Shown here in pieces: positions 2,979 through 26,191 of a stretch of 64,000 nt of DNA. Origin of the DNA: Candidatus Saccharimonadota bacterium (GTDB taxonomy: Bacteria > Patescibacteriota > Saccharimonadia > Saccharimonadales > Saccharimonadaceae); contig JAGQNA010000002.1 of the NCBI GenBank assembly GCA_020428315.1, forward strand, positions 1 to 64,000. The letters run 5' to 3'. The notes beneath the pieces are model-generated. The model saw nothing but the letters and a program-made list of their open reading frames with translations, made no database searches and was not told the DNA's origin. Numbering within the stretch: position 1 is the stretch's first letter; the number at the start of each line of letters is the position of its first letter. The position numbers were made by a program, and so were the translations under genes.

Positions 2979-2985
2979 ACTTCTG

Positions 2986-2991
2986 TATAAT
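2986..2991 (+). promoter_or_regulatory. -10 element, leaderless start of the helicase gene
   Basis: A perfect TATAAT ends 7 nt before the ATG at 2999, which puts the expected transcription start on or next to the start codon. No Shine-Dalgarno is present. Confidence 0.7.
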
Positions 2992-2998
2992 AGTATTA

Positions 2999-4516
2999 AT
3001 GGACCAACAGCTAGCGCTTAATATATTACTCGATGGGCATAATGTTTTATTAACTGGACCAGCCGGTAGCGGAAAAACCTACTTATTGAATCAGTTTATA
3101 AAGTTAGTTAAGCATGGGGGTAGAAAGGTTAGTGTAACAGCTACGACTGGGTTGGCAGCAACGCACTTAGGAGGAACAACAATTCATAGCTGGAGTGGGA
3201 TTGGTATTGCCGATAGTCTCACAGCTGGATTTGCTGAACATTTTAGCAAAGGAAGATTGGACATCATTGGTAAAACAGATATTTTGATAATTGATGAGAT
3301 TTCAATGTTACATGATTATCGACTAGATATGGTCGACGAAGTTTGTCGTGTAGTACGGAAACAGCCAGATAAGCCATTTGGTGGAATACAAGTTGTTTTG
3401 TGCGGTGATTTTTTCCAGCTACCACCAGTGAATCGTAGCGATAGTCGAGCAGGCGGTTTTGTGACAAATTCTACGGTTTGGCAAGAGCTAGACCTGGTAG
3501 TTTGCTATCTTGAAGATCAACATCGTCAGAATGACGAAGGGCTGATTGAAGTGCTAAACAGTATCCGTACAGGTGATGTTCGAAGAAATCATGCCGAAAG
3601 ATTACTCTCTCGGACCGAGATTGATGCACCAGAGGGGCTTAGACTAACTGAACTACACACCGTGAATGTCGATGTTGACACTATCAATGCTAAAGAGCTA
3701 GAAAAGTTAGATGCAGATGAGATAGCGTTTGAGCAGACGACTACAGGAAGCCAGAACTATATTGAGAGTCTTCAGCGAAGCGTATTAGCACCAGATACAC
3801 TAAAGCTCAAAGTTGGTGCTTTAGTGATGGCAGTTAAGAATTCAACTGATAAAAAATATATGAATGGAAGTATTGGCGAGGTAGTTTCATTTGAGCCTGG
3901 TACTGATTATCCAATTATTAAGTTTGTTAATAATCAAGAAGTGATAATGCAACCAGATACATGGGAACTAAGAGATGGCGACAAAAAACGGGCTAGTATA
4001 ACTCAAATACCGCTTCGGCTAGCATGGGCGATAACTATTCATAAGAGCCAAGGAATGACTTTAGATGCTGCACAAATAGATTTGCGAAAAGCCTTTGTCC
4101 CTGGAATGGGCTATGTAGCTCTTTCTAGGCTGCGGAGCCTTGATGACCTATATCTAAGAGGCATTAATCAGATGGCACTTAAGGTGAGCGATGAAGCATT
4201 GGAGATCGATAATGTTTTACGATCTAAGACCAGGGAAGATTCAGTAAGATTTAAGCATCTGAGAGGAAGTACTACAAAACTTGGCACTACTGCAGCTAAG
4301 AAACCCCAAGTTTCTGGCTGGGCAGAGAAAATAGAAAAGATGCGTAAGACATTTCCAAATGCGTATCGCCCATGGACCAGGGCAGATGACGAATTACTCA
4401 AACAGGATTTTCAAAATGGAACCAGTATTGCAAAATTAAGTAAAAGGCTTGGCAGGCACGAGGGAAGCATCGTGATGCGTATAAAAAAACATTTTGGCGA
4501 AGAGGTCGAGGTATAA
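2999..4516 (+). CDS. PIF1-like superfamily 1B DNA helicase
   Basis: This is an ATP-dependent DNA helicase of the PIF1/RecD2 group. Walker A is GPAGSGKT (residues 20-27), Walker B is LIIDE (96-100), and GDFFQLPP (136-143) is a PIF1 hallmark. The C-terminal helicase motifs are seen in LRLAWAITIHKSQGMTLD and GYVALSRL. After the helicase core, residues about 455-500 (RPWTRADDELL...) form a Myb/SANT-like helix-turn-helix, likely an extra DNA-binding module; this tail is common in Patescibacteria PIF1-like proteins. It likely acts in replication or recombination. Its own leaderless promoter sits in the 20-nt gap after the KwaB-like gene. Confidence 0.9.
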   Translation: MDQQLALNILLDGHNVLLTGPAGSGKTYLLNQFIKLVKHGGRKVSVTATTGLAATHLGGTTIHSWSGIGIADSLTAGFAEHFSKGRLDIIGKTDILIIDEISMLHDYRLDMVDEVCRVVRKQPDKPFGGIQVVLCGDFFQLPPVNRSDSRAGGFVTNSTVWQELDLVVCYLEDQHRQNDEGLIEVLNSIRTGDVRRNHAERLLSRTEIDAPEGLRLTELHTVNVDVDTINAKELEKLDADEIAFEQTTTGSQNYIESLQRSVLAPDTLKLKVGALVMAVKNSTDKKYMNGSIGEVVSFEPGTDYPIIKFVNNQEVIMQPDTWELRDGDKKRASITQIPLRLAWAITIHKSQGMTLDAAQIDLRKAFVPGMGYVALSRLRSLDDLYLRGINQMALKVSDEALEIDNVLRSKTREDSVRFKHLRGSTTKLGTTAAKKPQVSGWAEKIEKMRKTFPNAYRPWTRADDELLKQDFQNGTSIAKLSKRLGRHEGSIVMRIKKHFGEEVEV

Positions 4517-24916: not shown

Positions 24917-24949
24917 AAATAAAGGGCATAGCTATTGGTGTGCTATGCC
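24917..24949 (-). terminator. Terminator of dprA
   Basis: GGCATAGC (24925-24932) and GCTATGCC (24942-24949) form a perfect 8-bp stem; read on the minus strand it is followed by CTTTATTT. The stem overlaps the dprA stop codon. Confidence 0.6.
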
Positions 24950-25800
24950 AGTGTCCACTGGTTAGCCCCAAGGCTACGTATTATACCATTAATCTCAAGC
25001 ATTGTTAGCGCTTGAGATAGCTCAGCTGCGCTTACACTTAACTTGTTTCGTATTTCGTCACCATCACGGATACCGTCAGAAAAAAGTTTAATAATACTGT
25101 CTTCAAGCGGTGTATCACCTAGAGGTAGGCTAGTTTGTTGTTTTGAGTCACTTGGCATGAGCAGCTCTATAATATCACGGCTACTAGTTAGCGGAGAGGC
25201 ACCTTGCTTGATTAGCTGATTGCAGCCAAAGCTCATCGGGCTAGTGATTGGACCTGGGACTACAAAAACATCTTTCCCCTGTTCTAATGCACGACTTGCG
25301 GTGTTCAGAGTACCACTTCGTGCCGATGCTTCTGTGATAATGATTGCATCGGCAAGACCACTGACTAGTCTATTGCGTTCTAGGAACTGGTACGGTCGAG
25401 CTCGTGAGTGCTGAGGATATTCACTAATAACCGCCCCACCATTTAAAATGATTTCTTTGCCGAGTGAAGCATTACTAGCCGGATAAATGTTAGGTAGTCC
25501 ATTGGCAAGAATTGCTATAGTTACCCCGCCGCTTTCAAGAGCTGAACGGTGAGCTATTGCATCAACTCCCAGCGCAAGTCCGCTAATAATAATAATTCCG
25601 TGACGAGCAAGTTCGCTAGTGATTTTCGATGTAACCTCTATGCCATACGAGGTAGGTTTTCTAGTACCGACAACAGCAACAGACGGTCTACGATTATTGG
25701 GTAATACGCCAATATAATCTAACTTTTTAGGAGGTTTTGCAATATGGGTCAATATCTGAATGTAATTATTTGTATCTGGTGAAATAGTATTGATTTTCAT
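24943..25800 (-). CDS. dprA: DNA-processing protein DprA
   Basis: DprA loads RecA on incoming single-stranded DNA during natural transformation. The Rossmann-type core shows VGTRKPTSYG, ISGLALGVDAIAH, LANGLPNIYP and SGTLNTASRALEQGKDVFVVPG. A C-terminal winged helix (about residues 215-285) is present. The 285-aa protein lacks the N-terminal SAM-like domain of longer forms. With the pilin gene it supports competence in this organism. Confidence 0.95.
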   Translation of the reverse strand: MKINTISPDTNNYIQILTHIAKPPKKLDYIGVLPNNRRPSVAVVGTRKPTSYGIEVTSKITSELARHGIIIISGLALGVDAIAHRSALESGGVTIAILANGLPNIYPASNASLGKEIILNGGAVISEYPQHSRARPYQFLERNRLVSGLADAIIITEASARSGTLNTASRALEQGKDVFVVPGPITSPMSFGCNQLIKQGASPLTSSRDIIELLMPSDSKQQTSLPLGDTPLEDSIIKLFSDGIRDGDEIRNKLSVSAAELSQALTMLEINGIIRSLGANQWTLA

Positions 25801-25820: not shown

Positions 25821-25849
25821 TTGACGTTATGTCAAATACGTGCTAATAT
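25821..25849 (+). promoter_or_regulatory. Strong promoter of an ORF-less transcript
   Basis: TTGACG (25821-25826), 17 bp, TAATAT (25844-25849). It points away from dprA and no coding frame follows before the terminator at 26133-26169. Confidence 0.75.
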
Positions 25850-25855
25850 TTAAGA

Positions 25856-26169
25856 TGATTGGTCATTCAGCGAGGGTGACCAAGCACCTTATACCCCCTA
25901 TTCTAACAAATCTATCGTATGATAGACAGTTAGGTTGTGTGTAACTGTGATGATAGTATTCTACCCTCCATTATCATTACGTAAGGTTACACGCATACTA
26001 ACCCCTTTAACCCCCATAGATTCTATGAGGATACCATTCAAAGAACGACTATTCAGTAGTGATTCATCAGGCGTCCACCACGTGGAGTTGGTGTCGTGCG
26101 CTTTGTTCTGGTGTGGGTTGAAGGGTAAAACGGCGCTAGGTGATGCCCACCCTTACCTAGCGCTTTTTT
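25856..26169 (+). ncRNA. Candidate structured RNA, about 314 nt, unknown family
   Basis: The unit runs from a near-consensus promoter to a strong terminator with no convincing ORF. Several hairpins can be drawn: TTGGTCA/TGACCAA at the 5' end (25859-25883); CTAAC-TCTATC/GATAGA-GTTAG (about 25903-25933); a long arm GTGTGTAAC/GTTACACGC with an inner ATGATA/TATCAT (about 25936-25995); CATAG/CTATG (about 26015-26027); CACCA/TGGTG near 26077-26093; and the terminator. The 3' neighbour zupT has a separate leaderless promoter after the terminator, so this is more likely an independent RNA than a zupT leader. Hallmarks of tmRNA, RNase P RNA, SRP RNA and 6S RNA were looked for and not found. Confidence 0.6.
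26133..26169 (+). terminator. Terminator of the structured RNA
   Basis: GCGCTAGGT (26133-26141) and ACCTAGCGC (26155-26163) form a perfect 9-bp stem with a 13-nt loop, followed by six T. Confidence 0.9.
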
Positions 26170-26185
26170 AGTTGGAAAAAATCGG

Positions 26186-26191
26186 TATACT
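26186..26191 (+). promoter_or_regulatory. -10 element, leaderless zupT
   Basis: TATACT ends 7 nt before the zupT ATG (26199) and lies downstream of the terminator. The -35 would fall in the T-run and is poor. Confidence 0.6.

Follow-up and report, generated by a model that had tools for sequence, protein, structure and literature searches.

Between dprA and zupT, in the 64,000-nucleotide stretch of DNA analysed here (the window), lie about 310 nt that look transcribed but not translated. The question that this locus raises is whether they hold a real RNA gene, and whether such an RNA would be new, a very diverged form of a known one, or a regulatory part of a neighbouring gene. The question bears on a wider group, as few regulatory RNAs are known from the Saccharibacteria, which form a large group of very small bacterial parasites and include human oral species.

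A standalone structured RNA gene

The plus strand of the window contains, at 25856-26169, a standalone structured RNA gene of about 310 nt, which is supported by its fold, its homologues and their covariation, and whose ends are placed by sequence inference. It is almost certainly a member of a real RNA family. The promoter that an earlier note on this DNA had claimed from the letters is present on the plus strand, with TTGACG at 25821-25826, a 17-nt spacer and TAATAT at 25844-25849, and it also has an extended -10 TG at 25841-25842. The claimed structure is borne out by the calculated fold energy of 25850-26172 (+), which is -117 kcal/mol vs -80.2 +/- 5.2 in 100 dinucleotide shuffles (z = -7.06; 0/100 shuffles as low), and by conserved, covarying helices; the opposite strand folds more weakly (z = -3.44). 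The claimed terminator is found at 26127-26169 and consists of a 10-bp stem, an A/U extension and T6. It was missed by a simple terminator scan because its 13-nt loop exceeds the limit of 8 of that tool.

The statement that the stretch has no ORF needs rewording. A 78-codon TTG-started frame lies at 25935-26171 (+), and a 48-codon frame is present on the minus strand. Neither is conserved as a frame and neither is a gene, because the homologues carry indels whose lengths are not divisible by three, and they vary through compensatory pair changes. Further downstream, a TATACT box at 26186-26191, 7 nt before the zupT ATG, fits a putative leaderless zupT promoter.

Distribution across the order

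A plain DNA search with a 341-base query found homologues of the RNA in 162/198 genomes of the window's family, spread over 47/61 genera, and the match spans most or all of the RNA in 30/30 fetched loci. Two covariance models extend the range. R1, made from the 3' 70 nt of the RNA, was run on a phylum-wide draw, where all listed genomes of the window's family and 6/8 listed genomes from other families of the same order are positive, and the broader model R2 is positive in 265/393 genomes of the class, the matches listed being all in the window's order; absences in these counts make them lower bounds, the 3' models being short (60-70 nt) and the search filters strict, and 3'-based models would miss homologues of other classes with a changed 3' end. 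Four R1 hits elsewhere in the phylum, with E of 0.0007-0.008, were rejected as chance-level for 380 genomes searched with a limit of 0.01 each.

Records with the motif of the terminator loop are, among the matches listed, almost all labelled 'Candidatus Saccharibacteria' or TM7, and those listed include Nanosyncoccus alces and oral taxa 348 and 352; a few of the listed matches lack a taxon, and the label Chloroflexi on one of them may be a mistake. The pattern of the loop plus a T run occurs essentially once per cellular genome, and the reversed control almost never occurs. A second hairpin in genome G076 belongs to a full-length RNA; the bin of that genome has 8% contamination. The full-length RNA is absent from the phages and plasmids of INPHARED and PLSDB. 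A description of it was not found in the open-access papers searched, and one transcriptome paper on TM7x mentions neither ncRNA nor non-coding. The RNA is thus order-wide and undescribed in the sources searched.

Neighbourhood and promoter

The RNA is a single-copy gene that is inherited with the topA/dprA locus. In most loci dprA, which in the window lies outside the RNA at 24943..25800 on the minus strand, is divergent from the RNA, with its start on the opposite strand at a distance of a few dozen bases, and the two are flanked by topA and pth-der, one at either end. The gene zupT is downstream of the RNA in few relatives only. The synteny with topA/dprA, together with the rarity of zupT, therefore indicates vertical inheritance of the RNA with the locus, and not a zupT leader. 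Of the two flanks that the earlier note had named, dprA is a meaningful neighbour in most loci and zupT is incidental. In one subgroup (L121-L127, L133) dprA and the RNA together have the reverse orientation with respect to topA and pth, and therefore both have moved as a unit.

The closeness of most copies to a divergent dprA could be taken to mean that the RNA is a cis-acting element, such as a leader or 3' UTR, of dprA or zupT. However, the RNA is transcribed away from dprA and terminates on its own ahead of zupT, a gene that most copies do not have beside them, and in L107-L109 and L117 the RNA persists while dprA was not found between topA and the RNA. Such a cis-acting role is largely refuted by the synteny and is hardly to be credited.

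A promoter of the form GTRTTGAC...TGNTA, with TTGAC and the extended -10 TGNTA (25821..25849, +, in the window), stands directly ahead of the RNA in nearly all copies. In L114 and L115 the automatic promoter pick fell inside the RNA, and L114 is cut by the contig end. A palindrome, TTGACRTTATGTCAA, covers the -35 (window 25821-25835) in many close relatives, not order-wide, and also creates a TTGACA that faces dprA on the minus strand. It was considered as an operator and rejected, being confined to some close relatives and having matches elsewhere in the window at chance level only.

Comparison with known RNA families

With Rfam at gathering scores, the whole window gives two tRNAs and no other match. 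Near the RNA locus, Rfam 15 at E <= 10 gives three chance-level hits and nothing else, and the diverged members of the RNA family are also without a match in Rfam. The covariance models thus match the locus to no family.

The RNA could nevertheless be a very diverged housekeeping RNA, namely RNase P RNA, tmRNA, SRP RNA or 6S RNA. RNAs of this kind typically are of this length, occur in single copy behind a strong promoter and vary in the middle between conserved ends, as it does, and 6S RNA (RF00013) was not found in its own genome at E <= 10. Against this, the locus has no match to RNase P RNA (RF00010), whose true copy sits elsewhere in the same genome (C8:898-1226, 255 bits). Likewise, the locus has no match to tmRNA (RF00023), ARAGORN finds none in the window, and the true copy is at C8:3984-4388 (85 bits). 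SRP RNA (RF00169) has no match at the RNA locus and none above the cut-off in 41/41 relatives; similarly, the Ffh M domain (PF02978) is found in 0/15 relatives tested vs 14/14 positive controls. The diverged members matching no Rfam family also count against a housekeeping RNA. Like 6S RNA, the RNA is a single-copy gene of the abundant type with its own promoter and terminator; unlike 6S RNA, it has no long rod with a central bubble but a multi-domain fold of about 310 nt with a P5 junction. A very diverged known RNA, which the earlier note had kept as an option, is hence largely excluded, and we consider it highly improbable. What the note had proposed first, a new RNA family of Saccharibacteria, is upheld: the RNA is conserved across the order, its helices covary, its promoter and terminator are conserved as well, and it has no match in Rfam.

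As a side observation, the window's order seems to lack the signal recognition particle, as judged from 41 genomes for the RNA and 15 genomes for the Ffh M domain. A pattern for SRP domain IV was not found in the own genome of the window, and its scattered hits are no more than in the control. An SRP-like hit in L070 (22.5 bits) was discarded as chance, as it is below the cut-off and the tested genomes are without the Ffh M domain. SRP subunits are missing from many CPR genomes (PMC8080830).

Anatomy and covariation

The alignment of related loci comprised 84 non-redundant copies and gave covarying helices. Two kinds of controls were used, of which shuffles ignore relatedness and slid helices keep it. 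In the 84 copies, pairing in P1, P3, P5, P6 and the terminator stem greatly exceeds that of the slid controls, with compensatory changes, and covariation in the slid versions is far lower than in the true helices.

The consensus order is P1, J1, P3, P5 enclosing variable hairpins and P6, and the terminator hairpin T, all given here on the plus strand. The 5' hairpin P1 (25859..25883) is variable in sequence, has 6 pairs with compensatory changes, and reaches a covariation of 0.505 vs 0.265 in shuffles. J1 (25885..25898) is the conserved CACCUUAUACCCCC in the main subgroup and is lost in some diverged members. The long hairpin P3 (25929..26002) has 16 bp, of which 15 show compensatory double changes among the 84 sequences, 94.7% paired cells and a covariation of 0.700 vs a shuffle maximum of 0.265. 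The 5' strand of P5, CCCUUUAACC (26003..26012), pairs with its 3' strand, GGUUGAAGGG (26116..26125), with 97.9% paired cells and double changes in 6/10 pairs; its covariation (0.164 vs 0.114) is weak in size because the strands are nearly invariant. P6 (26069..26102), a hairpin inside P5, covaries at 0.671 vs 0.377 in shuffles. The terminator hairpin T (26127..26169), with the covarying stem 26132-26141/26155-26164 and a T tract, does so at 0.471 vs 0.229 in shuffles. Alternative pairings, of the first CUAAC with GUUAG or of J1 with the G-rich strand, are possible.

The apical loop of P3, UACCCUCCA (25962..25970), is C-rich, and its CCUCC core is retained in 84/84 aligned copies though the stem varies. 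This constancy brings in the main functional rival, an anti-Shine-Dalgarno regulator acting in trans, in which the C-rich loops (UACCCUCCA in P3 and ACCCCC in J1) would pair with G-rich ribosome-binding sites and repress translation. Such sites are scarce in the window, which weakens this rival: GGAG lies <=20 nt upstream in 4/51 long window frames vs 2/51 internal controls, and GGAGG in 2 vs 1, with starts taken mechanically. Nor would it account for the phage hairpins described below or for the near-invariance of the terminator loop, and we regard it as improbable. The C-rich-loop sRNAs of Firmicutes are of the RsaE and LhrC type. The RNA resembles them in a conserved unpaired C-rich loop with a CCUCC core that could target G-rich leaders; unlike them, it is longer, single copy and order-wide, and has the near-invariant terminator loop, with few SD motifs in the window.

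The terminator loop and a candidate pseudoknot

The terminator loop is the most constant part of the RNA. Its length is fixed at 13 nt (GAUGCCCACCCUU, 26142..26154, +), and its near-invariant core UGCCCACCC, at 26144-26152 in the window, is present in 83/84 aligned copies, while the stem changes freely. The one exception, row L133, is not a true loop variant: here the script selected the wrong hairpin. The outer loop positions are G-A...U-U in 59/84 and G-G...C-C in 22/84, the second outer pair covarying from A-U to G-C, and hosts of the GG...CC type have a C.U mismatch just below the loop in 18/22 cases. One locus outside the 84, L128, has the terminator loop UGACCCACCC; this diverged homologue (2985-3330, -) also has a weakened P3 loop and is possibly degenerating.

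A strand complementary to the loop lies within the RNA itself. In the window it is GUGGG (26113..26117, +), and GGUGGG is found <=230 nt upstream of the loop in 78/84 copies, the remaining six keeping GUGGG or GGGUGG, at places that differ between clades. The duplex of loop and GGUGGG has a calculated energy of -10 to -16 kcal/mol. A pseudoknot between the two is likely as judged from complementarity, its strictly conserved pairs being beyond a test by covariation, and the internal complement would explain part of the loop constancy without a partner. It may even be asked whether the loop does nothing but close this pseudoknot, with the phage hairpins as antisense mimics that would invade the GGUGGG strand and so unfold the host RNA. 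The frequency of the complement and the stability of the duplex speak for this. However, ~6-7 nt are enough for the pairing, yet hosts and phages alike also preserve the UG at the start of the loop, the R-Y pairs and the clade-specific C.U mismatch, and we think it unlikely that pairing is the whole story.

Simple pairing fits less well than a protein partner, since conservation extends beyond CCCACCC to the length of the loop, its leading UG, the R-Y pairs and the C.U mismatch. Hence, the terminator loop is probably recognised as a unit by a partner, as far as its pattern of constancy can tell. The loops of the RNA were also compared with RNase P RNA and tmRNA, where complementarity is no better than a two-mismatch match.

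Hairpins borne by phages

Exact-pattern scans of viral contigs gave 32 matches to two loop types followed by a T run, and 19/32 stand on stems of >=6 bp (20 with one bulged stem). With two permuted loops as controls, 0/33 form such a stem. The viral scan fixed the loop sequence, and loop constancy was tested separately with the 5' half left free: 6/7 phage hairpins read GATG and one reads CTGC. Phage hairpins of the GGTG type have the C.U mismatch of the hosts in 6/6 cases, among which L285 and L286 are near-identical neighbours. The stems are unrelated in sequence to each other or to those of the hosts, and a profile of the whole RNA matches phage contigs only at positions 268-310 of 311. This phage link, in which Saccharibacteria are putative hosts, is the surprising part of the analysis; its control is clean, and it hints that a partner in the cell reads the loop and that phages exploit this.

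Several phage hairpins follow an upstream terminator and a -10 box of their own, from which a transcript of 45-90 nt is predicted, but an extended -10 is found upstream of only 10/20 phage hairpins vs 9/45 non-hairpin matches. On four related contigs the hairpin comes after a gene in the head-gene region, and these could be plain terminators. Several phage hairpins come just after the -10 box, and some after tRNA genes (L261, L264).

Proposed function

We put at about an even chance a reading, drawn from sequence comparison, in which this is a constitutive, standalone, trans-acting structured RNA whose 3' hairpin loop is read by a partner, and in which phages exploit the same partner. The RNA would be transcribed constitutively from its own promoter and act in trans. 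Its body, made of P1, P3 with the exposed CCUCC loop and the P5/P6 domain, would serve as a scaffold, and the 3' terminator hairpin would be the business end, whose 9-nt UGCCCACCC may dock either the GGUGGG strand or a protein of the cell, be it a partner in an RNP or an RNA chaperone. Phages of these bacteria would carry the bare hairpin to occupy or borrow the partner of the RNA. For the phage copies themselves, a role as decoys is quite conceivable, if short of an even chance, and one as shared loading tags of phage transcripts or as functional terminators may be entertained more tentatively. Equally tentative is the fuller proposal of an order-wide RNP, built on an undescribed RNA, on which Saccharibacteria would depend, and in which clade-matched terminator-hairpin RNAs of phages would mimic the 3' loop and hijack or titrate the partner.

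RNA anti-CRISPRs (Racr) are phage-encoded RNA mimics. As in Racr, the phages here carry a short copy of a host RNA element; unlike in Racr, that element is no CRISPR repeat but a terminator hairpin, namely that of a housekeeping-like RNA. OLE, ROOL, GOLLD and raiA/ModT are orphan large structured RNAs of bacteria. The present RNA is like them in being standalone, complex and highly conserved, a few hundred nt long, discovered through sequence comparison, and with a function that is not deducible from sequence; it is unlike them in its clade, in the stand-alone hairpin copies of phages, and in having no Rfam 15 match at E <= 10. ModT (raiA) has been described as an orphan large structured RNA (PMC11706538).

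An order-wide, single-copy RNA near topA/dprA is a candidate core component that was missed by Rfam-based annotation, and with the covariance models R1 and R2 it can be annotated straight away. What had been noted earlier for this locus did not include the invariant loop of the terminator, the candidate pseudoknot, the synteny with topA-dprA or the phage-borne hairpins. The phage copies offer a handle on function, as the loop may be used as bait for the partner and the matching of phages to hosts by loop type is testable.

The hairpins are carried by contigs L258-L261, L264-L269, L274, L277, L279-L282, L285, L286, L288 and L289. Matches to PHROG on the examined contigs include portal, capsid, terminase, protease, tape-measure and lysis proteins, which identify them as tailed phages. 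The portal of L258 is closest (~31% identity) to portals from phages of Gram-positive bacteria. A further phage hairpin, near 6686-6709 of L353, has a 17-bp stem and a variant loop, CUGCCCCACCCUU, which is also of 13 nt.
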